The notes beneath the pieces were generated by a model. That model worked only from the letters and a program-made list of their open reading frames with translations. It searched no databases and was not told where the DNA came from. 64,000 nucleotides of DNA. Source: Niabella aurantiaca DSM 17617 (GTDB lineage: Bacteria; Bacteroidota; Bacteroidia; Chitinophagales; Chitinophagaceae). The stretch's first letter is position 1. Each line of letters starts with the position of its first letter. Positions 1 through 12,842 of the stretch are shown here, one piece after another. The position numbers and the translations under genes were made by a program. Location of the stretch: assembly GCF_000374125.1 (NCBI RefSeq), contig NZ_KB893627.1:124001-188000 (forward strand), written 5' to 3'.

Positions 1-483
1 TTTACCTATAAGAACTGGTCGCTTGCGGTGAATGCCTCTTATACCTTCCTGAGGGATGTGCTCAATACCCCGCTGGCGAAACGGTTCCAGTATTTTTATA
101 ACCCGGAGTCTTCGGGAGCGCTGCCGCCGATCGATGAATACGATTACTGGAAGCAACCGGGCGACGATGCCCGGTATCCCAATCCGTTTACCTATCAGCA
201 AAACCGTGCGATCGGTTCCTACCGGTACAACCAGACCCTGTTCATGGAAGATGGTTCCTATTTTAAATTCAATTCGGTTACCCTGGGGTATGCATTTGAC
301 AAGGCCCTGATCAGCCGGATCAAGCTCAAATCGGCGCGCATTTATTTTACCGGGCAGAATATGCTCGTGATCAGCAATTACTCCGGGCCCAACCCAGAGA
401 ACGTATCCGACCTGGGACGGGATCATCCGGATGGATATCCCAGCCCCCGAAAATATTCATTAGGCTTAAACGTAACCTTCTAA
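1..483 (+). CDS. SusC/RagA-family TonB-linked outer membrane protein, C-terminal part
   Basis: The reading frame is open from base 1, so only about the last 160 residues are present; the N-terminal plug and most of the barrel lie upstream of the window. The visible part is beta-rich, with alternating aromatic and polar residues, and ends in a short strand closing with Phe (SLGLNVTF), as outer-membrane barrels do. A SusD gene follows 9 bases later, the usual SusC-SusD order. The family imports oligomers bound by SusD across the outer membrane using TonB energy. The substrate cannot be read from this fragment. Confidence 0.9.
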   Translation, partial: FTYKNWSLAVNASYTFLRDVLNTPLAKRFQYFYNPESSGALPPIDEYDYWKQPGDDARYPNPFTYQQNRAIGSYRYNQTLFMEDGSYFKFNSVTLGYAFDKALISRIKLKSARIYFTGQNMLVISNYSGPNPENVSDLGRDHPDGYPSPRKYSLGLNVTF

Positions 484-492
484 AGTTTAGTT

Positions 493-2064
493 ATGAAGTT
501 GAAACAATATACATGCCTGCTGGCCGTAGTTGCATTGATCAGCATCGGAGCCGGTGGTTGCCGCAAATTCCTGAATGTGGATCCTGTGAACTCCATGTCG
601 GGAAACAATTTCTGGAAATCAGAAGACGACGTGGAGAAATTCATCACGGGCACTTACGGGTTGTTGCGCAGCTATACCTGTATGGACGGGTACTCATTGC
701 TGGCGCTGGCTGATTTTCGCTGCGCGGCGTGGATCCCTTCGTCGCGGGGTACGGGAAGAACCTATATCAGCGACCTGAACAATAACCGGATCCGAAGCCT
801 GATGAGCTCTACGGTAGGGCTGGCGGGGAGCTATGGCAATTTTGACCAGAATGTGAACCAGTTCGGTTTTCAGAATATGGCCGATTGGGGATATATGTAC
901 CGTATTGTTACGGCAGCCAATACCATTCTTGCAAATATTGACAGTAAGGATATTGCTGACATCAGCGATGCGGACCGCCGCAGGTATAAGGCGGAGGCCG
1001 TATTTATCAGAAGCCTTGTTTATTTTCTGATGGTACGGCATTGGGGCGATGTGCCGTATGTGACCGAACCGTCGGACGAAACGCCCCACGAGCGGATGAA
1101 CCAGGTAGCGGTATTTAAAAATTGCACGGCCGCACTCAAAGAAGTATTGAATGACCTGCCCTGGACCTATTCCGACCCTACCCTGAGAGGAGTAAGGGCC
1201 ATGCGCGGCGGCGCTTTGGTATTGATGATGGAAATGAATATGTGGATGGCCTGTTTTGATGAGCCGGGCGAGAACGGGTACTACGAGGAAGTGGTGGCGC
1301 TGGGAAGCCAGCTGATCGATCAGAACGGCGGCGCCTACGAGCTGCTGCCCCTGGAAAGTTATAAGGAGATCTTTAAAGGAACATCTAAAGAAAGCCTGTT
1401 TGAAATAGGACAGGATTATAACTACGGAGAAACCTTTGGATTGCTGGCTACGATTGCGGATATTGTTTTAAGAACGCCTTACAAGAAAAATGTAACGGTC
1501 ACTTATGCCTATTATGCCACCCCGTACCTGATGCAGCTGTATGATGAAGAGAACAATGGCCTTTCGGATAAACGGATTGATATGTGGTTTGAGCGGCCAA
1601 CCATGTATGACGGCAGCGGGCAGTTTGTATTCAAAAAATTCCTGAACACTTTTGCCACACAGCAGGAGACCGAAAACCCCAATGATGCCAAGATCCTTTT
1701 CCGGTATGTAGATGCGTACCTGCTCCGTGCAGAAGCGCTGGAGAAGCTGGGCCGCAACGCCGAAGCCCTTGCCGATGTGAATGTGATCCGCACCCGGGCG
1801 GGCGCCGAGCTGTTTACAGGAACAGAGACCAACCAGTTTGGCCAAACGCTGGAAGACGCCATCTGGTGGGAGCGGGAGCGCGAGCTGATGGGCGAAAGCG
1901 CTACTTTCTATGACCTGGTCCGCACCAAGCGGATCCTGAGCGGACAATACACGCCATTTCCCATTACGTATGATGAGTTCCTCGGCGGCGCGTGGACCTA
2001 TCCCATTCATCCGAATGTTATCCTGCGCAATCCCAAAGTAAAACCCAATCCGTTCTGGATGTAA
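493..2064 (+). CDS. SusD/RagB-family nutrient-binding outer membrane lipoprotein
   Basis: This 523-residue protein has a lipoprotein signal peptide ending GAGGC (Cys23) followed by RKFLNVDP, the characteristic SusD start. TPR-like helices follow (for example RRRYKAEAVFIRSLVYFLMVRHWGDVPYV near residues 160-190, shown here only as a landmark). The C-terminal part has the family signatures RAEALEKLGRNAEALADVN and WWERERELMGE. Length is normal for the family. It caps the SusC barrel at the cell surface and captures ligand. It belongs to the same transcription unit as the SusC fragment and the five lipoproteins downstream. Confidence 0.95.
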   Translation: MKLKQYTCLLAVVALISIGAGGCRKFLNVDPVNSMSGNNFWKSEDDVEKFITGTYGLLRSYTCMDGYSLLALADFRCAAWIPSSRGTGRTYISDLNNNRIRSLMSSTVGLAGSYGNFDQNVNQFGFQNMADWGYMYRIVTAANTILANIDSKDIADISDADRRRYKAEAVFIRSLVYFLMVRHWGDVPYVTEPSDETPHERMNQVAVFKNCTAALKEVLNDLPWTYSDPTLRGVRAMRGGALVLMMEMNMWMACFDEPGENGYYEEVVALGSQLIDQNGGAYELLPLESYKEIFKGTSKESLFEIGQDYNYGETFGLLATIADIVLRTPYKKNVTVTYAYYATPYLMQLYDEENNGLSDKRIDMWFERPTMYDGSGQFVFKKFLNTFATQQETENPNDAKILFRYVDAYLLRAEALEKLGRNAEALADVNVIRTRAGAELFTGTETNQFGQTLEDAIWWERERELMGESATFYDLVRTKRILSGQYTPFPITYDEFLGGAWTYPIHPNVILRNPKVKPNPFWM

Positions 2065-2078
2065 AAAATAATTGAATC

Positions 2079-2786
2079 ATGCGAAAGATTTTTATCTGCC
2101 TGTTTACAACCATCCTGTTTACCACTATTGTGGCCATGACCAGTTGCAAAAAACAGTATTATTTCGATTCGGGGCTGAGCACCCCCACCTTTGACGGCAG
2201 CATGCTGGAGTACCTGGAGTCGAACCCGTTCCTGTTTGACACCCTTGTGAGTGTGATCCGGATGGCCGGGCTGGAAAATTATTTTAAAGACAGCGCATTC
2301 ACCTTTTTTGTGCCGGCAGATTCGAGTATCCGGAGCTCCCTGCAGTATTTTAATCTTCAGCTGAAGCTGGAGGGGAAGGACACCATCCGCAAGATCAGTG
2401 ATGTGAAGCCGGAGTTCTGGCGTTCCACGCTGATGATGTATATGTACCGGTCTGTACGGGGGCTGGAAGATTACCCGCAGCTGGATGTCAATAACAAACA
2501 GGCCTTCCCGGGCGAATTTGTGCGGTCGATGTCTGGCAAGATCATGAACATCGGTACGATCTTTACCGATGCCCGCGGCATTAAGTACAAAGGATTCCGC
2601 TTTTTAAACCTGTCCTTTGTACCCAACGAAGCAGCGCCTTATAACTCCTGGTTCCTGGGGCCGGTAGCTACCTGTAATATTAAGCCCCGCAACGGTATTG
2701 CGCATGTGCTGGTGTACCCTGTGCATTTCTTTGGATTTGATGTGAATCAGGCATGGTTGCAGGCCCGCTACTACGGATTTGATTAA
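2079..2786 (+). CDS. Fasciclin-like domain lipoprotein
   Basis: A 235-residue lipoprotein with lipobox Cys23 in MTSCKK. One fasciclin-like (FAS1) domain is suggested by a helix with DTLVSVIRMAGLENYF, then the strand FTFFVPADSSI, the FAS1 'FAP-like' motif followed by a variable helix. The second conserved FAS1 stretch is less clear. FAS1 domains usually mediate adhesion or ligand binding rather than catalysis. The gene lies 14 bases after susD and 20 bases before the next lipoprotein, so it is probably an accessory surface component of this SusC/D system. The domain assignment rests on motif recognition only. Confidence 0.75.
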   Translation: MRKIFICLFTTILFTTIVAMTSCKKQYYFDSGLSTPTFDGSMLEYLESNPFLFDTLVSVIRMAGLENYFKDSAFTFFVPADSSIRSSLQYFNLQLKLEGKDTIRKISDVKPEFWRSTLMMYMYRSVRGLEDYPQLDVNNKQAFPGEFVRSMSGKIMNIGTIFTDARGIKYKGFRFLNLSFVPNEAAPYNSWFLGPVATCNIKPRNGIAHVLVYPVHFFGFDVNQAWLQARYYGFD

Positions 2787-2806
2787 TATAGTTAAAAATA
2801 CTGACG

Positions 2807-4564
2807 ATGTTTATAAGATTACGGAAGATGAATAAACGGACCTTATTTGCAGGGGTTGTCCTGTTGTACACCGGGCTGCTTTCCTGCAGCAAGAACCAGC
2901 AGAGCTTTTCAGGGGCATATAAAGACGCCGTGTTAAGCCCCGTCAAATTTCTGGCCACCCAGCCGGTTCCCGGTTCCGGGATCGCGGGCGTGCAGGTGAA
3001 GTTCAAGCTGGTAGGGGCAGATTACCTGAAGGGGCTGCCGGCGAATGAGCTGCAATTTTTCCTGAACGGCGTGGAAGCGCCGATTGACGAGCTGTCCCCG
3101 GCCGACAGTTCCATCCTGGTTACGGTTCCGGAAAATGCTTCTTCCGGAGCGGCAACCCTCGTAGTGGGCGACCGGATCTTTTTCGGCCCCCAGTTCCGGG
3201 TAAACGGCGATGTTTGGTTCGATTCTACATTCAACCGCCAGGGCACGGACCAGCAGGGCAATGCCATTATGGGAAGCGGCGTCAACGGCGCCATTACCGA
3301 TATCCATTATGAGGAGTTTGGCGCCACAAAGAATATATACATCATGGGGCTGTTTACATCGTTCAACGGTGAGCCCGCCTATACCGCTACCGCCAACGGC
3401 GCAACGGCCAGCTCCAATGTGCGCTATATGCTGAAGCTGGATCCGGTTACCGGGCTGATCAAAGGTGATTTTACAAAAGGAGAGGGGCCGAATGGCGCAC
3501 TGACCGGGCTGCTCCCGTTGACACGGTTCCCCGGTTTTCTGATCTACGGCGGTTTTTCCCGCTACAATGAGCGGGACGGGGTCAATAACATGACGCGGAT
3601 CTATGAAGACGGCAAGCTGGACTCGATCGTGCAGAACGTTTACAATCCCAACCCGCTGGAGACACAGTACAATGTGGATACATTGCCTGCTTTTATAGGC
3701 GGGTTTAACGGCGGGGTGCTGCGGGCTTTTATCGATAAGAAACAACGCATCATCAGTGTTGGTAATTTCCGTTATCACAATAAGAACCTCTACAACCAGT
3801 CTACGTATTTTAACGTGGTGCGGGAGCTGACCTATCTCAAAGATATTGGCGCGACCGACCAGGACGGCAACCTGGATACGACCTATAACTACGACCGCAC
3901 ACGCGGCCAGCTGTATAAAGGCGCCAATGCGCCCATCAATGACGCGGTACAGGTCCGGGATGGGAACAGCCCGTACGGCAAGATCATCGTGGTTGGGAAG
4001 TTTACGGCCTTCAATGGCATCCCGGTGCCTCGTATCATGCGCCTGGATGATAACGGCCAGCCGGATCCGGGATTCCAGGCTTCAGCAAACGGCGAGATCA
4101 CGAGGATCACCTATAACAGCACTACCCGCAGGTTGATGGTGGTGGGCAGCTTTACCCAGTTCAACGGTGTGGCCACCCCCAACGGGGTGATCATGCTGCA
4201 TGAGGATGGAGCAACCGATATGGGCTTTCAGACCCGGGAAATGACCCGTGCTACCAGTGCCGCGGGGCAGCTGATAACGTATGCGGCCCAGATGAACGAT
4301 GGAAAAGTGATCGTCAGCGGCAGCTTTGAAAAATATAAAAGCAGCAACAACGTGTTTGTTACCCGGCAGGGCTTTATGATATTGGATGAAACCGGTGAGC
4401 TGGTTCCGGGAATGAACAATACCGGGGCATTCAGCGGGGAGATCACCGATATGCTTGAAACGCTCAGCGGATCAAAAAAAGCGCTCATCCTCGTAGGCCG
4501 TTTCGGTCTTTTCGACAACATGGAAGTGGGAAATATGGTGCGCATCGGGTTAGAACCAAAATAA
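2807..4564 (+). CDS. DUF5008/IPT-like lipoprotein with delta-60-type repeats
   Basis: About 585 residues. A lipoprotein signal ends LLSC; a second possible ATG at 2828 (MNKRTLFAG) would remove seven residues and also leave a good signal peptide. Residues about 40-130 resemble an IPT/TIG-like immunoglobulin fold. The rest carries repeated units of the form GxFTxFNGxPxxxIMRLxxDGxxDxGF (for example VVGKFTAFNGIPVPRIMRL, VVGSFTQFNGVATPNGVIML), typical of the delta-60/DUF5122 beta-propeller repeat. No catalytic motif is visible. It is likely a surface binding protein of the SusC/D complex. Confidence 0.75.
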   Translation: MFIRLRKMNKRTLFAGVVLLYTGLLSCSKNQQSFSGAYKDAVLSPVKFLATQPVPGSGIAGVQVKFKLVGADYLKGLPANELQFFLNGVEAPIDELSPADSSILVTVPENASSGAATLVVGDRIFFGPQFRVNGDVWFDSTFNRQGTDQQGNAIMGSGVNGAITDIHYEEFGATKNIYIMGLFTSFNGEPAYTATANGATASSNVRYMLKLDPVTGLIKGDFTKGEGPNGALTGLLPLTRFPGFLIYGGFSRYNERDGVNNMTRIYEDGKLDSIVQNVYNPNPLETQYNVDTLPAFIGGFNGGVLRAFIDKKQRIISVGNFRYHNKNLYNQSTYFNVVRELTYLKDIGATDQDGNLDTTYNYDRTRGQLYKGANAPINDAVQVRDGNSPYGKIIVVGKFTAFNGIPVPRIMRLDDNGQPDPGFQASANGEITRITYNSTTRRLMVVGSFTQFNGVATPNGVIMLHEDGATDMGFQTREMTRATSAAGQLITYAAQMNDGKVIVSGSFEKYKSSNNVFVTRQGFMILDETGELVPGMNNTGAFSGEITDMLETLSGSKKALILVGRFGLFDNMEVGNMVRIGLEPK

Positions 4565-4584
4565 AAGTAATTAAATCAGTCCCC

Positions 4585-6609
4585 ATGAAAAAGTTATTAA
4601 ATCAGGGAATCTTATTATTGATGCTGGCGCTGATCTCCGTTGCCGGCTGTAAAAAATACGGCTATGCTTTTAGAGACGGCTATGAGAACGGAGAGGACAA
4701 TGCCACTATGCCCCCCGGCCAGACGGACAGCCTGAGTGCCGACTTTTCAAAGATCAGGGAGGCCCGCATCTTTCCCGGGCTGGTGGGGGCATCGGAGCCC
4801 CGGCTGAAGAATAAGGCCGTAACCATCGATTTTTCGAAAAGATACGTGCCTTCAACAGATATCCGCGTGGTTTCCACACCACAGCCTTTTTACAGTACGG
4901 GCCTGTATGCACCGGCAGGAGAGCCGGTTACCATAGAAGTGCCGCAGGGTACCGAAGGGATCATTGCCATGGTGGGCGGATGGACGGACAATCTTTCGGG
5001 GATCGCACAAACGAAAAGAGACCCGCTGATCTTTAGCCAGATCGGGTTGCGCCCTGGAAAAAATTACATCCGGAACCTGTACGGAGGGACCATTTACCTG
5101 AGAACGAACGGAACGGTAAAGAGCCTGGGCACGGTTACCGTAACGTTTTCCGGTGCCGTCCAATCGCCGGATTTTGTACTGGGCGAAACTTCCGATGCAG
5201 CCTGGAACGAAAGCGTTCACAACTCCACGGTTCCCTGGTTCCAGCTTCGCGGAAAGCGCATCATATTCGAGTTGCCGAAGATCTTTGTAGACAAACATCC
5301 GATCAGCAATCCCACGGCTTTAATGGAAGAATGGGACCGCATTATTGAGGAAGATATTTACAGGTGGAAAGGCCTGGCTGATGATGATCCCGATTCGCTG
5401 AACAGGGCGCCCAACCACCCCATACGGGTCATTATGGATGTGCAGCCCCGGTTATCCTATGCACACAACTCGTTCCCGGTAGTGATCCAGATGGATGAGA
5501 ACCTGTTTGTAAATGAGATCACCGATCTTTCCAAACTGACCACCAAAGGCGCCTGGCGGACGCTCTACGAGATCGGCAGGAATAACAGCACTTATTTCTG
5601 GTTGTTCAGCTCCGTATCTCCGGCGGCGGCTAATCTCTTTTCCATCAAGATGGCGCACCGGCTTCAATTCGGCTTTGAGAACCTTCACCCCGGCATGAAG
5701 CTGGCCATTGATACGGGCCTGTTGTATGCCAAACAAAAAAAGATCATCACCTCCAGCTTCAGCAGGGATATTACCCAGCGTACCAACGCAGACCTCATCC
5801 GGTTGCTGCCCTTTATCCAGCTGTTTGAAGTATATGGTTACGACATGCTGCAGTACATTGATTACCGCGCCCGGCAATACAACCTGTCGTCCTTATCCGA
5901 TCAGCAAAAGGTCAACTTCTTTTATACCTGTGCCAGTGAGTTTGCACAAACCGACCTGTCTGCCTTTTTCAGGGCCTGGGCCATTCCCGTATCTCCGGAT
6001 GTTACAGACTCCGTAGGTACAAAATTCCCCTACCTCACTAAAACGATCTTCGAATACAACCCCATTACCAAAACCGGGATCCGGGATTCGGTGATGCCGC
6101 CACCGCGGGAGATCGACCGGGTCAGCTGGCAGGTGATCGGTTTCTGCTGCCAGGAAACGGACAATGCCGCAGCCTATGCCAGCAACCTGCTGGATGGGAA
6201 TGTGGCCTCGGTATGGCATTCGCAATGGAAGCTGAATGCCGGCCAGGCTCCGCACTTCCCGCATTACATTACGTTTGACATGGGTAAGATTTTTGATGTT
6301 GGCGGGTTCTTCTACATCAACAGCACCTCGCAATGGCGTCCGAAAAATATCAAGATCTACCTGAGCTGGGATAATATGACCTGGGTAACAGCCTGGACCG
6401 GTGCCGGCTGGAACGTAGGCGACGGTGTGTATAACAGCGCCAATTTCGGCTACCGGTATAATGGGGTACGGTATGTGCGTTTTGAGATGAATGAAAGCTT
6501 CCCCGGTTCAGCCAACAATGCCGTGTGTACCGGTGAGTTCGGCGTGCTGACGCCGGTGGCGGCACAGGTGCCCAGTCCGCCCCCGAGCCCGGAAGGAGAG
6601 GAATTTTAA
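4585..6609 (+). CDS. M60-like peptidase-family lipoprotein with discoidin (F5/8C) domain, zinc site lost
   Basis: A 674-residue lipoprotein (Cys22). Residues about 90-400 follow the M60/enhancin-like layout: N-terminal beta region (FYSTGLYAPAGEPVTIEVP), then the core ending in a helix with NLFSIKMAHRLQFG. Active members have HExGH followed by EVTxN; here the same places read YEIGR (residues 328-332) and PAAAN (346-350), so both zinc histidines and the third ligand Glu are absent. Residues about 520-660 form a discoidin/F5/8C carbohydrate-binding domain (NLLDGNVASVWHSQW, HYITFDMGKIFDVGGF, RYVRFEM). I infer a non-catalytic glycan- or glycoprotein-binding protein. The rest of the protein is not visibly truncated. 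Confidence 0.75.
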   Translation: MKKLLNQGILLLMLALISVAGCKKYGYAFRDGYENGEDNATMPPGQTDSLSADFSKIREARIFPGLVGASEPRLKNKAVTIDFSKRYVPSTDIRVVSTPQPFYSTGLYAPAGEPVTIEVPQGTEGIIAMVGGWTDNLSGIAQTKRDPLIFSQIGLRPGKNYIRNLYGGTIYLRTNGTVKSLGTVTVTFSGAVQSPDFVLGETSDAAWNESVHNSTVPWFQLRGKRIIFELPKIFVDKHPISNPTALMEEWDRIIEEDIYRWKGLADDDPDSLNRAPNHPIRVIMDVQPRLSYAHNSFPVVIQMDENLFVNEITDLSKLTTKGAWRTLYEIGRNNSTYFWLFSSVSPAAANLFSIKMAHRLQFGFENLHPGMKLAIDTGLLYAKQKKIITSSFSRDITQRTNADLIRLLPFIQLFEVYGYDMLQYIDYRARQYNLSSLSDQQKVNFFYTCASEFAQTDLSAFFRAWAIPVSPDVTDSVGTKFPYLTKTIFEYNPITKTGIRDSVMPPPREIDRVSWQVIGFCCQETDNAAAYASNLLDGNVASVWHSQWKLNAGQAPHFPHYITFDMGKIFDVGGFFYINSTSQWRPKNIKIYLSWDNMTWVTAWTGAGWNVGDGVYNSANFGYRYNGVRYVRFEMNESFPGSANNAVCTGEFGVLTPVAAQVPSPPPSPEGEEF

Positions 6610-6630
6610 GAACCCAAAAACGAGATCACA

Positions 6631-7632
6631 ATGAAAATGAAACGCTATAAATTATTCGTGCTGCCGGTATTGGCCATCGTGGGAGCCGGCTTGCTTGGTG
6701 GGTGTAAGAAGTTCCCGGACCCGGGCCTGGTCATCGAGGAATACCAGCCGGATACGACCGTACGGGTATCAAAGGGGGACAGGAAGGTCCTGCTGATCAC
6801 CATCGACGGGCTCCGCGCAGATATCCTGTCCCAGCTGAAACCCGCGTCATTTGAGAACATTCTTAAGAATGCCAAATATTCCTTCAGCGCCGTTACCAAC
6901 TTACCGGTGAACAATACGGGGTCCTGGGGCTCCATGCTTACCGGTAATTTTGATACCCGCTTGTGGGACAGTACCTTTTACGCCGTTCCGGTAGATACGA
7001 CCAATACCATTCCGGTGCCGCTGAACATTACCGCGCTGCGCTACACCCACGGTGAAGACATCGGAAAGCGCATAGTGGCGGTTGCGGACTGGCCCAACCT
7101 GGTGAACACATTGATGAATGATGCCGATAAAAAACTGGTGACCACAGGCGATGAAGCCACCAAAGCAGCAGTAGAGCAGGTACTGAGAACCGATAGCGCG
7201 GATCTGATCGTGGCGCGTTTTTCGGATGTGCAAAAGGCCGGTGCCCAGTACGGTTTTGCCGATACCGACGGCTATAAGGCCGCCATTCAAAAAGTGGATA
7301 GCTATGTGGGCGCCGTGATGAACGCCCTGAGATCAAAACCGGATTACGCCAGCGAAAAGTGGCTGACGCTCATTACCACCACGCAGGTAAGCGATACATT
7401 GCTGACAACGGAAAACTGGGCAAACTCCCCGCTGCAGATACCTTCGTTCGTCATAGCGCATTACCCCGGGTTTACACCACAGGACATCACGAAGATCAAC
7501 CCGGCCATCATCGCAAGGACCGAAGACATTACTGCCCTGATCCTGTATTGGCTGCGGGTATCAAAACCAACTTCCGTAGTGAACGGTTTTTCCTGGATCG
7601 ACCGGTTTGAATTAGAATTCCTCACTAAATAA
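6631..7632 (+). CDS. Alkaline-phosphatase/phosphodiesterase-superfamily-like lipoprotein, metal ligands missing
   Basis: A 333-residue lipoprotein (lipobox LGGC, Cys25). The opening VLLITIDGLRADIL (Asp59) matches the first metal-binding strand of the alkaline phosphatase superfamily, and NTGSWGSMLTG matches the nucleophile region. Further on, the usual DxDxxGHxxG segment reads DVQKAGAQYG (199-208), and the usual SDHG reads TTQV (250-253). The expected Asp and His ligands of both metal sites are therefore replaced. The alpha/beta fold seems intact (YKAAIQKVDSYVGAVMNAL). It is short for the family. I infer a degenerate, probably binding-only member of this SusC/D operon. Confidence 0.65.
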   Translation: MKMKRYKLFVLPVLAIVGAGLLGGCKKFPDPGLVIEEYQPDTTVRVSKGDRKVLLITIDGLRADILSQLKPASFENILKNAKYSFSAVTNLPVNNTGSWGSMLTGNFDTRLWDSTFYAVPVDTTNTIPVPLNITALRYTHGEDIGKRIVAVADWPNLVNTLMNDADKKLVTTGDEATKAAVEQVLRTDSADLIVARFSDVQKAGAQYGFADTDGYKAAIQKVDSYVGAVMNALRSKPDYASEKWLTLITTTQVSDTLLTTENWANSPLQIPSFVIAHYPGFTPQDITKINPAIIARTEDITALILYWLRVSKPTSVVNGFSWIDRFELEFLTK

Positions 7633-7675
7633 GATGCGAAAAGATTTTTGGAACTGTTTAAATGATTAAAGCGAT

Positions 7676-8941
7676 ATGACAGCACATTATTCAGCATTTA
7701 GATACCTTGTTGTTCTGTTGTCCGGTTGGATGCTGGCGGGCTCCTGTGCCAAGGAAAACCTTCCGGAAGATTTGCGCGAGCTCCAATCCTATAACAAGTT
7801 GTATCTGGTGCAATCGTCTCTTACCGGCAACATCAATTACCGGTTGTATGTAAATTCACTGAAAACCGATACCAGTTTTTCGATCTATAATGTCACCATC
7901 GGGGGAAACAGTATTGCCGGCGCGGATATCCCCGTTTCTTTTGAGGCCCTGGGTCAGGACATGGTAGATGCTTATAACCAGGAAAAGCACACTGCTTACC
8001 AGTTGCTTCCCGCGCAGAGCTATACCCTGGTAGAAGACACGGTGATCAAAAAAGGGAACAGCAGCACCGGGATCCTGCCCATAAAGATAAAACTGCCCCT
8101 GCTGGAAAAAAATATCCAGTATCTCTTGCCCGTCCGGTTTACGACCGATACGCGGGATTATGAGGTAGACGAGCAGAAGCAGGTCGCTTATTTTATTTTT
8201 AAAGCCACCGTGGAGCCCACGGGGAAGATCATCGGCAATATTCCGCTGATCGACGATCCCCGCACCCGTGTCCTTGATTTTTTTGAAGACATCATGGTGC
8301 GGGATACTGCCGGCGACCTGTGGGTGTACCCGCTGAAGGGCCGCGAATCGCTGGGAGACCCGGTTAAGGTAGGTTCCGGCTTTTCAGATGTGATCTCGCT
8401 GATCTTTGAACCGTATTATGCAAAGCTCATAGGCATTCTTAGCAGCGGGTCTTTTAAGAATCACATCGCCAGCTGGACGGTCACGGAGTTCCCGGATGTA
8501 AAGATCGGGGCCACCTGGCTGGTATTTAAGACCTCCGATTATGCAACGCCAGGGTTCCGGGAATCATTCTGGAGTGGCCCTCATGGCCGATGGTATGGCA
8601 TCTGGACAAATGACGCCCTGTATTATTTTTCCGGACTGAACGCCAGCGGGGCATTGATCTCACGTACATCCATCGGTACCGGATTTAAACCGGCCACCTA
8701 TTCCTCCAATACCATTATCGGAAAAGACCTGGTAAGCAATAACATCAACGGGCTGTTGCTGTACTCGATGAACGACGCGGGTTCGGGGTTTCCGGCCAAT
8801 CGCTGGATGATCGGGGATGGGTTCTTTAGTTACCTCAGGCTGTTTTCTGTGGGGCATAAGGACCTGATCGCGGTCAAAAAGAACGGAGACCTTGTACGGT
8901 ATAAAGACTTTGATATCTACGGGTTTTACCACGCGCTGTAA
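7676..8941 (+). CDS. DUF1735-type lipoprotein with propeller-like C-terminal domain
   Basis: A 421-residue lipoprotein (Cys24 in LAGSC). Residues about 35-180 resemble the DUF1735/BT_3987-type N-terminal domain common in proteins encoded next to SusC/SusD: the strand order, the segment YQLLPAQSYTLVEDTVIKKG and the closing LEKNIQYLLPVRFTT. The C-terminal half repeats GDLWVYPL, DALYYFSGL and GDLVRYKDF, as in tachylectin-like five-bladed propellers that bind sugars. No enzyme motif is seen. It is the last gene of the operon; about 140 bases and a new promoter separate it from apbE. Confidence 0.7.
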   Translation: MTAHYSAFRYLVVLLSGWMLAGSCAKENLPEDLRELQSYNKLYLVQSSLTGNINYRLYVNSLKTDTSFSIYNVTIGGNSIAGADIPVSFEALGQDMVDAYNQEKHTAYQLLPAQSYTLVEDTVIKKGNSSTGILPIKIKLPLLEKNIQYLLPVRFTTDTRDYEVDEQKQVAYFIFKATVEPTGKIIGNIPLIDDPRTRVLDFFEDIMVRDTAGDLWVYPLKGRESLGDPVKVGSGFSDVISLIFEPYYAKLIGILSSGSFKNHIASWTVTEFPDVKIGATWLVFKTSDYATPGFRESFWSGPHGRWYGIWTNDALYYFSGLNASGALISRTSIGTGFKPATYSSNTIIGKDLVSNNINGLLLYSMNDAGSGFPANRWMIGDGFFSYLRLFSVGHKDLIAVKKNGDLVRYKDFDIYGFYHAL

Positions 8942-9070
8942 TGCACACCGGCGGCGGTCAGATATCCTGTTATCCGGGGGCGTTCCCGAACTGTACCGGC
9001 GAGTATAAAACAGTTGTCTGCCTGCACTGCCGGCGATGATCGTTTTACGGCGATGGCCTTTGAATTTGCT

Positions 9071-9078
9071 TATATTTG
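9071..9078 (+). promoter_or_regulatory. Bacteroidota -7 promoter element (TATATTTG) before apbE
   Basis: TATATTTG fits the Bacteroidota TAnnTTTG consensus exactly and lies only 6 bases before the ATG at 9085. Transcription would start at or next to the start codon, giving a leaderless or near-leaderless mRNA. No good -33 TTTG is seen at the standard distance. Confidence 0.6.
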
Positions 9079-9084
9079 CAGGCT

Positions 9085-10122
9085 ATGTGTTGGTTGAAAA
9101 AATATGGATGGAGCTTGCCGGCAGCCATTGCGGTTCTTTGTTTGTTTTCTTTTTTTAAAACAACGGCGGGTCTGAAGGCAATTCATATAAACGGGTTTGC
9201 GCAGGGAACCACTTACCATATTACCTACTATGCTGCCGACAGCAGTATGACCCGGGAAGCCGCCGATAGTATCTTCCGTTCCTTAGACAGTTCACTGTCC
9301 ATATACAAACCCTATTCGGTCATCACGAGATTCAACCGGGCGCCGCGGGGGCTGGTACCCGACGGGCATTTGCGGAAAGTGGTGCTCCGGGCACAGGAAG
9401 TCTCAGAAGCTGCGGCGGGGATCTTTGATATTACGGTAATGCCGCTGGTAAAACTTTGGGGCTTCGGACCGGATGGAAGATCCAAAACCATTCCGGATGC
9501 GCGGAAGGTAAAGGACATACTGGCATATGTGGGTTATCAGAAATTATATTTTAAAGGAGACAGCCTGCTGAAAAAAGATCCGAGGCTTACCATCGATGTG
9601 AACGGCATCGCGCAGGGATATACCGTAGATGTGATCGCCACCTTCCTGGAGGCCCGGGGAGTGCAGGACTATCTGGTGGAAGTAGGGGGCGAGATCCGTG
9701 TAAAGGGCCGGAAGCGGCCATCGGGGGAAATGATGAAGATCGGTATCGAAAGCCCTTCGGAGAATGAGGAGACCGAGACCCCCGTTTTGATAAAAACGGT
9801 CTTTGTAAAAGAAGGGGCCATAACAACTTCGGGAAAATACCGCAATTTCTACCGGAACGGAAATAAAAAAGTGTCGCACCTCATCGATCCCCGCACAGGG
9901 TTCCCGCTGAGTAATGAAATGGTCAGCGTAACCGTTTTTGCAAAAGATGCGATCACCGCAGATGCGTATGACAACGTAATGATGGGGATGCACCTCGATG
10001 AAGCGTTTGCCTTTTTAAAAAGACATCCGGAACTGGAGTGCTATTTTATTTATACTAAAAAGGACGGAACCGTTGCCGATACCGCTTCTGCAGGCTTTGA
10101 AGCAATGAAAGGCCGCATGTAA
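9085..10122 (+). CDS. apbE: ApbE-family FAD:protein FMN transferase
   Basis: 345 residues from the ATG at 9085, which is placed right after a promoter element; a TTG nine bases upstream is less likely. One N-terminal hydrophobic segment (residues about 10-25) suggests export or membrane anchoring. ApbE motifs are present: DSSLSIYKPYSVITRFN, AAAGIFDITVMPLVKLWGFG, LTIDVNGIAQGYTVD, and the metal/flavin-binding tail HLIDPRTGFP with ITADAYDNVMMGM. ApbE proteins transfer FMN from FAD to a Thr of exported flavoproteins such as Nqr/Rnf subunits. No target flavoprotein gene is in the window. Confidence 0.92.
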   Translation: MCWLKKYGWSLPAAIAVLCLFSFFKTTAGLKAIHINGFAQGTTYHITYYAADSSMTREAADSIFRSLDSSLSIYKPYSVITRFNRAPRGLVPDGHLRKVVLRAQEVSEAAAGIFDITVMPLVKLWGFGPDGRSKTIPDARKVKDILAYVGYQKLYFKGDSLLKKDPRLTIDVNGIAQGYTVDVIATFLEARGVQDYLVEVGGEIRVKGRKRPSGEMMKIGIESPSENEETETPVLIKTVFVKEGAITTSGKYRNFYRNGNKKVSHLIDPRTGFPLSNEMVSVTVFAKDAITADAYDNVMMGMHLDEAFAFLKRHPELECYFIYTKKDGTVADTASAGFEAMKGRM

Positions 10123-10191
10123 ATGCTGATGTATTCTGCCGCTTATTGGTTATATTAGCACTTCAAGCCACATCTTTAACTTTTGATCAAT

Positions 10192-12102
10192 ATGAACAGA
10201 CTAAACAAGCTGAACCTGACGGTTCTTGCGCTTGCAATTTCTTTGATCAGCACTGCACAGCAAAAGCCCAATGCCATTGCATTGATACCGGAGCCGGTTT
10301 CGCTGACGGAACAGAACGGCGTTTTTGTGCTGCCGCAGAATGTGACCATCAGTGTTCCCGCAAAAGCAGACCTGGGCCATACCTATGCCCTGTTAAAAGA
10401 AAGGATCGCCAATACCGGGGCCACGGTACAGGAGCAGAAAGAGAATGCCGGCGCCACGATCAGCCTGGTGCTGAACAAAAGCCGCGACAGCCGCCTGGGT
10501 GATGAAGGGTACACGCTTTCGGTAGCACCCGGCAAGGTAACGGTAAAGGCCAACAAGCCGGCGGGGCTTTTTTATGGCGTGCAGACATTTTTGCAATTGC
10601 TGCCGGCGCAGATCGAAAGCGTGGAGCGGGTGGATGGCGTGCAGTTGCAGGCTCCCGCCGTGGAAATTGTCGACTACCCGAAAGTAGGATGGAGAGGACT
10701 GATGCTGGATGTGTCCCGCCACTTTTTTACCGTCGATGAGGTAAAGCGGTACATCGACAATATGTCGCGCTTTAAATACAATATGTTCCATTTTCATCTT
10801 ACGGATGATGAAGGCTGGCGGCTGCAGATCAAAAGCCTGCCCCGGCTTACCGAAGTGGGCGCATGGCGGGTGAACAAAGTGGGCCTGTTCAATACATTTA
10901 CTCCGCCAACACCGGATGAACCTAAAAACTATGGAGGTTACTATACACATGAAGACATTAAAGAGCTGGTGCAATATGCAAAGGACCGCTTTATAAATAT
11001 TGTTCCGGAGATCGATGTCCCCGGGCACAGTCTTGCGGCCATTGCTTCATACCCCGAGCTGTCGTGTACGGAGGGGGCCGATAAATACCAGGTAAGGTCG
11101 GGAGAGCCCATAATGGATTGGTCGCACGGGGCGCCGCCGATCGCGATGATGGACAATACCCTTTGCCCGGCAAATGAAAAAGTATATGGATTTATGGATA
11201 AGGTCATCACCGAAGTGGCACAACTGTTCCCGTTCCCGTACATTCACGTAGGCGGTGATGAAGCCCCTCATAATTTCTGGGAAAAAAGTGCACAGGTGAA
11301 GGCCCTTATGAAAAGGGAAAAGCTCACAACCATCCCGCAGGTACAGGCTTATTTTGAGAAGCGGCTGGAAAAGATCGTAAATGCAAAAGGCAAGAAGCTG
11401 ATGGGCTGGGACGAGATCCTCGAAGGGGGCATTTCTCCCACGGCCGCGCTGATGAGCTGGCGCGGGGAACAGCATGGCATCGAAGCATCAAAATCGAAGC
11501 ATTATGTGGTAATGAGCCCCACACAGTTTACCTATATTGATTACATGCAGGGGGATATAAGCACCGAAGTGCCGATTTATGCTTCCCTACGGTTATCGCA
11601 GGCGTATAAATTCAACCCGGTTCCGGAAGGGGCAAATGCCGAATATATTTTGGGCGGTCAGGCAAACCTGTGGACGGAGAATGTGTCCAACATCCGGCAG
11701 GCGGAGTACATGACCTGGCCGCGCGGGCTGGCGATTGCAGAGTCTGTCTGGTCGCCGCTGGACAAAAAGGACTGGAAAAAATTTGCGGCAAAGACCGAGC
11801 GGTTCTTTGACCGGTTCAATGCAGCGGAGATCAAATATTCGCCGGCCATTTATGACCCCATCGTAACCGTGTCTAAAAAAGAAGGCGAATATTCTGTAAC
11901 CCTCACACCGGAAATAGACGGTCTGGATATTTACACCAGTTTTGATAATTCTGCGCCTGATCGTTTCTATCCAAAGTATTCCCGGCCTTTGCAGATCCCC
12001 AAGGACGCCAATGAGCTACGGATCATTACCTACAAAGGGAAAAAAGAGATCGGCCGGCAAATGACGATCAAAGTGGCCGATCTGAAAAAGCGGGTGAAAT
12101 AG
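10192..12102 (+). CDS. GH20 beta-N-acetylhexosaminidase
   Basis: 636 residues from the ATG at 10192, with a Sec signal peptide ending STAQQ. An N-terminal GH20b-like domain (about 25-150) precedes the GH20 barrel: GWRGLMLDVSRHFFTVDEVK, FHFHLTDDEGWRLQIKS, VPEIDVPGHSLAA, and the catalytic pair in HVGGDEAPHNFW (Asp356-Glu357). A C-terminal beta domain of about 90 residues follows. It removes terminal GlcNAc or GalNAc from glycans, chitobiose or glycoproteins, in the periplasm or at the surface. A cyclophilin lipoprotein gene follows after 38 bases. All catalytic features look intact. Confidence 0.95.
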   Translation: MNRLNKLNLTVLALAISLISTAQQKPNAIALIPEPVSLTEQNGVFVLPQNVTISVPAKADLGHTYALLKERIANTGATVQEQKENAGATISLVLNKSRDSRLGDEGYTLSVAPGKVTVKANKPAGLFYGVQTFLQLLPAQIESVERVDGVQLQAPAVEIVDYPKVGWRGLMLDVSRHFFTVDEVKRYIDNMSRFKYNMFHFHLTDDEGWRLQIKSLPRLTEVGAWRVNKVGLFNTFTPPTPDEPKNYGGYYTHEDIKELVQYAKDRFINIVPEIDVPGHSLAAIASYPELSCTEGADKYQVRSGEPIMDWSHGAPPIAMMDNTLCPANEKVYGFMDKVITEVAQLFPFPYIHVGGDEAPHNFWEKSAQVKALMKREKLTTIPQVQAYFEKRLEKIVNAKGKKLMGWDEILEGGISPTAALMSWRGEQHGIEASKSKHYVVMSPTQFTYIDYMQGDISTEVPIYASLRLSQAYKFNPVPEGANAEYILGGQANLWTENVSNIRQAEYMTWPRGLAIAESVWSPLDKKDWKKFAAKTERFFDRFNAAEIKYSPAIYDPIVTVSKKEGEYSVTLTPEIDGLDIYTSFDNSAPDRFYPKYSRPLQIPKDANELRIITYKGKKEIGRQMTIKVADLKKRVK

Positions 12103-12140
12103 CCGGCGCGGACTTACTGCTGATACAACAAAAGCTTGAA

Positions 12141-12842
12141 ATGAAAAGATTTTTTCCGGTGCTGTGCATCGGTATGCTGGTGTTGAGTGGTTGTGCAACG
12201 GGCAAACCGGTCCGGTCCGATTATAAAAAGGACGTGCTGCTGCGCACCAGCTATGGTGATATGGTGCTGCGCCTGAGCGACGAAACGCCTCAGCACCGCG
12301 ATAATTTCATCCGGCTGGTGAAGTCCGGGTACTACAACGGTGTCCTGTTTCACCGGGTGATCCGGGATTTTATGATCCAGTCCGGCGATCCGCAAAGCCG
12401 GAATGCGCCGGGAGGGAAACCCCTGGGAGAAGGGGGGCCGGGGTACACCATACCGGCAGAGTTCCGGGAGCAGTTGTTTCACCGTAAAGGTGCCCTGGCG
12501 GCCGCCAGGGAGGGAGATGATGTGAACCCGCAAAAAGCCAGCAGCGGCAGCCAGTTCTATATCGTTCAGGGAAAAGTATGGACGAACGGCGCCCTGGATA
12601 CGCTGGAATGGAAACGTCTGAACGGGAGAAAGATCCCCGGAGCGTACCGGAAGGTCTATACCACCGTTGGCGGCGCTCCGCACCTGGATCAGCATTATAC
12701 CGTATTTGGCCGGTTGGTAAAGGGGATTGCGGTGCTGGACAAAATAGCCGCGGTACCCACCAGCAAAGGAAAGGACCGGGACCGCCCCATCCGGAATGTA
12801 ACGATCATCAAAGCAAAAATGGTGAAACGGCAATATCCGTAA
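12141..12842 (+). CDS. Cyclophilin-type peptidyl-prolyl isomerase lipoprotein
   Basis: A 233-residue lipoprotein (VLSGC, Cys18). The cyclophilin core is clear: LLRTSYGDMVLRLSDETP, YYNGVLFHRVIRDFMIQSGDP, ASSGSQFYIVQG and HYTVFGRLVKGIAVLDKIA. An insertion of about 40 residues (WTNGALDTLEWKRLNGRK and following) interrupts the core before the last strand, as in many Bacteroidota homologues. It would catalyse prolyl cis-trans isomerisation during folding of envelope proteins. The gene stands 38 bases after the GH20 gene and may be co-transcribed. It is convergent with the cupin gene. Confidence 0.92.
   Translation: MKRFFPVLCIGMLVLSGCATGKPVRSDYKKDVLLRTSYGDMVLRLSDETPQHRDNFIRLVKSGYYNGVLFHRVIRDFMIQSGDPQSRNAPGGKPLGEGGPGYTIPAEFREQLFHRKGALAAAREGDDVNPQKASSGSQFYIVQGKVWTNGALDTLEWKRLNGRKIPGAYRKVYTTVGGAPHLDQHYTVFGRLVKGIAVLDKIAAVPTSKGKDRDRPIRNVTIIKAKMVKRQYP

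Follow-up and report, generated by a model that had tools for sequence, protein, structure and literature searches.

A double SusC/SusD block of Niabella aurantiaca whose M60 protein lacks zinc ligands, and its possible role in glycan capture and import

Accessory surface lipoproteins in SusC/SusD loci, M60-like proteins without the HEXXH motif and a polysaccharide utilization locus (PUL) for arabinogalactan are already known. The mucin PUL BT4240-50 of Bacteroides thetaiotaomicron is described as one operon that joins SusC/SusD to the M60 O-glycopeptidase BT4244, which carries a CBM32-type domain, and to a DUF1735 surface glycan-binding protein (PMC11992087). PUL5 of B. thetaiotaomicron, under the hybrid two-component system (HTCS) BT0267, has BT0268 as its SusC, the promoter of which responds to arabinogalactan (PMC6874557, PMC5061871); a list of iron-regulated genes names BT0269-75 as SusD, hypothetical, DUF5007, SusD and DUF5124, and BT0277-79 as carbohydrate-binding protein, alkaline phosphatase family protein and hypothetical (PMC10434189). 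The utilisome of the levan and dextran PULs is a single outer-membrane complex that unites SusC and SusD with accessory lipoproteins; when its glycoside hydrolase (GH) was inactive and the chains were long, the binding protein was seen tethered (PMC7618045). HEXXH is present in 489 of 523 PF13402 (Peptidase_M60) proteins and deteriorated in 13 of the 36 vertebrate ones (PMC3267712). Here we describe a locus of Niabella aurantiaca DSM 17617 that lies at the start of a stretch of 64,000 nucleotides (contig NZ_KB893627.1, or C3, positions 124001-188000; hereafter, the window). Two SusC/SusD pairs and seven further lipoproteins form an operon-like block of 11 genes, and its M60 protein has lost all three zinc ligands.

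The gene content suggests that the block probably has a capture-and-import role, with its pseudoenzymes acting as binding proteins. We found no description of the block as a whole in the open literature searched, outside which most subscription papers lie; a conserved double SusC/SusD block whose enzyme slot is dead or replaced was not found there. The same literature contained no paper joining the term pseudoenzyme with polysaccharide utilization loci, none joining 3IV0 with SusD and none joining BT0265 with arabinogalactan. Subscription work on arabinogalactan PULs of B. thetaiotaomicron reportedly exists.

Loss of catalytic residues in the window block

In an alignment to 4fca (codons re-read), the window M60 protein has Y328, R332 and P346 where two His and one Glu would bind zinc, such that the HExxH..E motif reads YEIGR..P; Trp324 is kept. 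The protein matches PF13402 with 107.5 bits against a cut-off of 25.8, which makes it an M60 protein by profile and not by its zinc ligands, and the initial annotation of a dead M60 joined to a discoidin domain is borne out. The M60 fold is retained in an AlphaFold model built from a 24-row alignment (pLDDT 79.2). Foldseek placed 5ev7/4fca closest to this model (E about 1e-23, probability 1.00), followed by ZmpB, ZmpC, AM0627, BT_4244 and IMPa, and galactose-binding modules of the CBM32 type were matched by its C-terminal domain.

The same positions were compared over 82 rows. All 64 intact-class block rows keep H, E, H and E as well as the preceding Trp and Gly. Among the 11 rows of the dead clade to which the window belongs, neither His is kept in any, a Glu is aligned at the third ligand in two, and the Trp that precedes the first His by four residues persists in 10. 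Numbered through the E326A label of 7yx8, this Trp position corresponds to W321 of AM0627, which contacts O-linked GalNAc (PMC9118916).

The phosphodiesterase-like lipoprotein that follows is likewise altered. Compared with the nucleotide pyrophosphatase/phosphodiesterase of Xac type, it has Q and A for the D and H of VDEAGH, and T and Q for those of SDHG, so that four metal ligands are lost and the first Asp is kept, in agreement with the dead phosphatase-like protein predicted initially. None of 91 phosphodiesterase-like rows (2 of them gapped there) retains the SDHG Asp, blocks with an intact M60 included; these rows come only from 44 loci found through their M60 protein and from the window genome (C3, C6 and C13). 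In the C13 block the corresponding protein (L073, 680-2140) is longer than that of the window and has, by eye, an inserted F5/8-like stretch.

The block extends well beyond the window (Table 1). Its first gene begins 9.6 kb upstream of base 1 and its second SusC gene 2.7 kb upstream; a locus beginning near base 1 is therefore ruled out, and the window holds the 3′ two thirds of the block. The SusC, SusD and five lipoproteins first read at 1-8941 are all present, at the same coordinates and on the + strand. Adjoining DNA (locus L007) adds four complete genes before base 1, for another SusC/SusD pair, a lipoprotein with an F5/8 domain and DUF5007. All 11 genes are open. Profile scans that included the upstream half recognized no active carbohydrate-active enzyme or protease among the 11 genes, within operon limits that are predicted, and the lack of recognizable active enzymes noted at 1-8941 extends to the whole block. 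No regulator lies within it either.

Genes inside the block are spaced by 2-43 nt, whereas 1,021 nt precede the SusC1 frame (1,054 to the ATG) and 143 nt follow the last gene. A strong terminator-like hairpin (-17.7 kcal/mol, then T6) closes the gene ahead of the 1,021-nt gap, and one Bacteroidota-type promoter match, TTG-N20-TATATTTG, stands about 0.16 kb before SusC1; within the block there are no further TTG-N20-TATATTTG matches. A sigma-70 scan was uninformative here (13 matches vs 13.5 expected). A lipobox pattern is found in eight of the nine non-SusC products, and in the ninth, FAS1a, a hydrophobic stretch is followed by a Cys not caught by the pattern.

The FAS1-like call of the initial annotation stands: the window match is sub-threshold and the C13 paralogue exceeds the cut-off (24.5 bits). 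The protein called delta-60/TIG-like has DUF5008 (TIG-like) and DUF5122 repeats, its delta-60 match being below threshold. For the protein called DUF1735 plus propeller, the first part is confirmed by profile and the second is only plausible: a 3-sequence AlphaFold model matches DUF1735 proteins and assorted beta-propellers, which we take as a hint because its mean pLDDT is 59.7. None of the five window lipoproteins has an over-threshold NCBIfam family. The closest solved relative of SusD2 is 3iv0 (E 6.4e-81, residues 34-522); 3iv0 and 3hdx are presumably structural-genomics structures of B. thetaiotaomicron SusD proteins.

Table 1. Genes of the block and its downstream neighbors. Positions are those of the window unless preceded by L007, the adjoining DNA.
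Feature	Position	Strand	Evidence and remarks
SusC1	L007 6353-9370		first gene of block
SusD1	L007 9373-10998		
FAS1a lipoprotein, F5/8 domain and FAS1-like N-terminal part (by eye)	L007 11022-12209		
DUF5007	L007 12226-13269		263 bits
SusC2, SusC/RagA TonB-dependent transporter	L007 13304-16483; 3′ end at 1-483	+	TIGR04056 649.9 bits (full protein)
SusD2 lipoprotein	493-2064	+	SusD_RagB 78.7 bits
FAS1b, FAS1-like lipoprotein	2079-2786	+	Fasciclin 17.8 bits, sub-threshold (cut-off 22); lipobox
DUF5008 (TIG-like) and DUF5122/delta-60 repeat propeller lipoprotein	2807-4564	+	DUF5122 55.1 bits, DUF5008 26.9 bits
M60-like_N, Peptidase_M60 and F5/8 (discoidin, CBM32-like) lipoprotein, pseudoprotease	4585-6609	+	PF13402 107.5 bits
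Type I phosphodiesterase/nucleotide pyrophosphatase-like lipoprotein, pseudophosphodiesterase	6631-7632	+	PF01663 32.1 bits
DUF1735 (BT_3987-like N-terminal domain) lipoprotein, C-terminal part all-beta, possibly propeller	7676-8941	+	PF08522 66.1 bits
ApbE, outside block	9085-10122	+	PF02424 259.5 bits; 143 nt gap after block
GH20 beta-hexosaminidase-like, outside block	10183-12102	+	PF00728 368.7 bits; HVGGDE motif in translation

The block and its M60 slot in other genomes

To the 44 M60-found loci, obtained in a scan of named genomes, belong members of Niabella, Pedobacter, Sphingobacterium, Chitinophaga and Sphingobacteriaceae. The order DUF5007-SusC2-SusD2-FAS1-DUF5008-PDEa-M60-PDEb, in which PDEa and PDEb are phosphodiesterase-like genes, is found in 40 of them (L050 with split frames and L033 with two M60 genes included); of the other four, L017 and L038 end at contig ends, and L010 and L011 are without PDEa. 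The upstream part, SusC1-SusD1-FAS1a, is present in 17/17 blocks for which upstream DNA was read. The window block is itself without PDEa and has a DUF1735 gene added at its end. In Pedobacter frigoris (L033, 10001-12960) one block has two tandem M60 genes, both with HExxH. Several block genes are split over frames in L050 and L106 (G008), L087, L089 and L093, through sequencing error or real decay. An apparent DUF5008-M60 fusion in L100 was rejected, its 1,261-residue frame spanning a run of N.

DUF5007, used as an anchor, is present in 14 of 17 genomes of the genus, in 25 of 195 family-sample genomes (22 over the cut-off) and in 8 of 396 class-sample genomes, the window genome included each time, and in 3 of 251 genomes of family f34. 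Among 59 DUF5007-anchored blocks, 30 have an intact M60 motif, 15 have lost the zinc ligands, one has Gln for Glu and 13 are without M60; the M60-found loci enter this count only where a DUF5007 search also gave them. Of these, 34 blocks belong to the genus (16 intact, 13 with ligands lost, one HQLGH, four lacking M60), 17 to the remainder of the family (12 intact, five lacking M60), six to f40 (two intact, four lacking M60) and two to f34 (both lost). Outside the 59 stand G007 (weak DUF5007 and no surrounding block, L107), G790 (L136, contig too short), weak or partial matches in G137, G046, G101, G182, G065, G202 and G426, and second matches in G520 and G537. The idea that the block would be enzyme-free wherever it occurs is rejected, given HExxH..E in 30 of the 59. 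The Gln-for-Glu copy (L083 (G009:C11), reverse complement 10454-12490) keeps its zinc ligands and reads HQLGH. Two f34 genomes carry all eleven genes from SusC1 to PDEb in one order (SusC-SusD-FAS1-DUF5007-SusC-SusD-FAS1-DUF5008-PDEa-M60-PDEb) with an M60 that is without HExxH; downstream of these blocks (L110 and L112) lie, by eye, ExbB/ExbD-like and TonB-like partner genes, as if they had their own energy supply.

Profile search found no M60 in the 13 M60-less blocks, apart from two weak matches on Pfam F5/8 proteins. In five of the seven of these that were scanned, carbohydrate-binding lipoproteins occupy the M60 slot or the next place: DUF1735-like with PA14 and PKD with F5/8 in L130, CBM6/35 in L127, F5/8 in L126 and L133, and DUF1735-like with F5/8, both just under their cut-offs, in L123. 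The remaining two, L102 and L103, have a protein with weak metalloenzyme/phosphodiesterase matches there. This substitution bears on the possibility of a hidden enzyme, that is, an undescribed catalysis in the DUF5007, DUF5008, FAS1 or DUF1735 protein, or a re-made M60 pocket. Such an activity would be compatible with the absence of a solved sequence relative at E 0.1 for the window DUF5007, DUF5008 and DUF1735 proteins; however, the domains found in these lipoproteins are binding-type or without assigned function, and what follows or fills the M60 slot where M60 is missing is, in most cases scanned, carbohydrate-binding. We regard a hidden enzyme as improbable.

A quick tree of the 82 M60 rows (identical rows and fragments dropped, several long branches flagged), which gives no direction of change, unites the 11 dead rows from PDEa-less Niabella blocks as one clade (SH-aLRT 100). 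L094/L095, the two f34 rows and L083 fall apart from it, making four changes in all with the Glu-to-Gln copy included. L094 (G005:C3) and L095 (G017:C169) have lost the zinc site in blocks that retain PDEa, perhaps as a separate loss. In approximately unbiased (AU) tests, uniting the 11 dead rows with f34 gave a slightly better tree (p-AU 0.548) and uniting them with L094/L095 a tree 27 log units worse (p-AU 0.101). Because neither joined clade is rejected, the number of zinc-site losses may lie anywhere from one to three, and a count of at least three is not upheld.

The dead copies have been maintained. Eleven distinct ones occur in six Niabella-type genomes. For five close dead pairs, two methods (NG86 and YN00) put the ratio of nonsynonymous to synonymous substitution rates (dN/dS) at 0.03-0.10, as compared with 0.03-0.18 for four intact pairs; YN00 gave estimates for 6 of the 11 pairs, and NG86 dS was about 2 or more in four. 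The dead M60 is thus under purifying selection, as judged from close pairs in one Niabella-type clade, and its retention together with the low dN/dS indicates that it is kept for something other than zinc catalysis. These data also bear on whether the window block is a paralogue in decay, an M60 locus that the genome could spare and is about to lose. Decay would accord with the lost zinc site, with the absence from the window of a NAGPA-family gene found in four related loci and with the only measurable dN/dS of the window M60, the highest of the dead pairs, but not with 11 open genes, the number and spread of dead copies or the ratios of the close pairs, and we consider it very improbable.

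The window genome (5.93 Mb in 25 contigs), that of a soil-type bacterium with Niabella pedocola as its best named relative in a protein search, has four DUF5007 blocks, on C2, C3 (the window), C6 and C13. M60 is intact on C6 (HEQGH..E) and C2 (HELGH..E) and dead on C3 (YEIGR) and C13 (GAIGS); a fifth M60 lies at C13:493104, away from all DUF5007 matches. An HTCS stands beside the C6 block, with GH2, GH29 and GH20 downstream. With two active-looking and two dead copies in one genome, the evolution of an enzyme into a binding protein becomes testable with paralogues, as does the need of a SusC/SusD importer for its cognate surface enzyme. More widely, one operon slot of a widespread block occurs as an active-looking protease, a Gln-for-Glu protease, a zinc-less protease or a plain carbohydrate-binding lipoprotein.

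Neighboring enzyme units and the likely role of the block

Upstream of the block lie an HTCS-type sensor kinase (no regulator domain in the scan), SusC, SusD and a GH5-like lipoprotein, followed by GH43, GH43, GH43 with BNR, GH127 and an aldose epimerase, ending about 1 kb before the block; the second GH43 was identified by scan in the N. pedocola locus L078. The part from GH43 to the epimerase occurs in 5/5 window-type loci (the window, L078, G005 L139, G006 L141 and G016 L142), and so do ApbE and GH20 downstream. The window GH20, 1.2 kb downstream, has a motif (HVGGDE) that we take to be catalytic. A NAGPA-family gene directly follows the DUF1735 gene in the four other window-type loci and is absent at window 8942-9084; tblastn found no remains of it in the window or in L007. 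With this candidate enzyme gene present in the other four, the window copy would be enzyme-free partly by local absence.

These neighbors come close to the situation that the initial annotation had named as speaking against an enzyme-free locus, namely that the operon would include an active glycosidase or protease close upstream. The GH unit does lie only about 1 kb away, but we count it outside the operon of the block because the terminator-like hairpin and the promoter match, both predicted limits, lie between. The proposal that the substrate is processed by enzymes encoded elsewhere keeps its sense, fitting best with a capture role, although the enzymes are nearby rather than distant.

The same layout could describe an ordinary bipartite PUL, in which the block is the surface half of an arabinose-type PUL, its enzymes stand in the neighboring unit and the loss of M60 catalysis has no special meaning. 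The sensor, importer pair and glycosidases directly upstream, and the constancy of the GH43-to-epimerase part, favor such an arrangement. The upstream unit, however, has its own SusC/SusD in the three loci with enough DNA (window, L141 and L142), it is set off by the hairpin and the separate promoter match, and dead-M60 blocks of the C13 and L143/L144 types occur without this unit. On balance we think this account unlikely, while giving it serious weight.

Adhesion offers another way to use such proteins. FAS1 and F5/8 domains are frequent in adhesins, and a locus with both domains, nine lipoprotein-like products and no enzyme could use its FAS1, discoidin and propeller lipoproteins to fix the cell on surfaces of plants, fungi or animals, with uptake as a secondary matter. 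This is difficult to square with the two SusC/SusD pairs in every block whose upstream DNA was read, with related blocks that adjoin HTCS sensors together with either GH2, GH29 and GH20 or GH43, or with a B. thetaiotaomicron locus, matching by name, that is induced by a soluble glycan. An adhesion locus seems to us highly improbable.

Capture and import, in line with the initial suggestion of a locus for capture of a large glycoprotein or cell surface, fits best, though related blocks are not always enzyme-free. In this model, the two SusC/SusD importers and seven surface-type lipoproteins would together capture a glycan or glycoprotein of large size and import it as one complex. Its lipoproteins, among them the M60-fold pseudoprotease with its galactose-binding-type F5/8 domain and the phosphodiesterase-fold pseudoenzyme, would hold the substrate at the cell surface; glycosidases from adjacent transcription units would make fragments, and SusD/SusC would take these up with TonB as the driving force, much as the utilisome model has it. 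An active M60 O-glycopeptidase was most likely part of the ancestral block, and in the clade of the window the zinc site would have been lost and the M60 protein kept as a binder. The likeliest substrate is perhaps a plant glycan or glycoprotein rich in arabinose and galactose, for example arabinogalactan protein, because of the BT0268 name match and the upstream GH43/GH127 unit. In its full form, which we advance tentatively, the reading is one of an import complex of pseudoenzymes: an M60 glycopeptidase slot turned non-catalytic, and probably glycan-binding, throughout a clade (one to three losses, plus the separate Gln copy), phosphodiesterase-fold proteins dead in every copy counted, and two SusC/SusD importers on a wholly non-catalytic platform that may take up large glycoprotein fragments from separately regulated enzymes.

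A number of observations weigh against this proposal. The Gly beside the retained Trp is lost in 11/11 dead-clade rows, and the old glycan pocket is therefore altered. The Foldseek TM of the M60 model is 0.52 by query length, with a global rmsd of 16-19 Å for the top two matches, and the alignment behind the model included intact M60s. For the window M60 itself, dN/dS comes only from the comparison with L010 (NG86 0.14 at dS 2.2, YN00 giving none), dS being saturated against L086. The DUF5007, DUF5008, FAS1 and DUF1735 parts could hide an activity. Other dead types have different neighbors, which means that a single substrate cannot be assumed: BNR proteins, a sulfatase and NAGPA mark the C13 type (in the C13 block itself they follow together with a DUF1735-like gene), and beside the L143/L144 type one sees, by eye, genes of amino-acid and oxidoreductase-like kinds as well as a transporter resembling MFS. 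Lastly, the likeness to PUL5 is one of listed names, five for seven genes plus three for BT0277-79.

Comparison with known systems

Similarly to the M60-like proteins with a deteriorated HEXXH, the window M60 has lost its motif; the cases described in the available text of that survey (PMC3267712) include no conserved bacterial SusC/SusD operon with a lost motif. With the mucin PUL BT4240-50 the window block has in common SusC/SusD, a DUF1735 protein and an M60 lipoprotein that carries a CBM32-type domain. That PUL, however, has one SusC/SusD pair, an active M60, GH2 and GH109, whereas the window block has two pairs and a dead M60, and scans of its genes and of those flanking it showed neither GH2 nor GH109; nor does the available description of it (PMC11992087) name FAS1, DUF5007, DUF5008 or phosphodiesterase-like genes.

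The gene names listed for B. thetaiotaomicron PUL5 (BT0267-BT0279), as far as the source gives them, fit the order of the block. The f34 blocks have PDEa and are without the terminal DUF1735 gene, an HTCS stands beside one of them and GH43 genes lie near them, whereas the window block has neither PDEa nor an HTCS beside it; its HTCS-like sensor kinase precedes the upstream unit. The utilisome, in the account available, combines one surface GH and one surface glycan-binding protein with each SusC/SusD, whereas the putative complex of the window, as read from its genes, would combine two importers with seven further lipoproteins and include no recognizable active enzyme.

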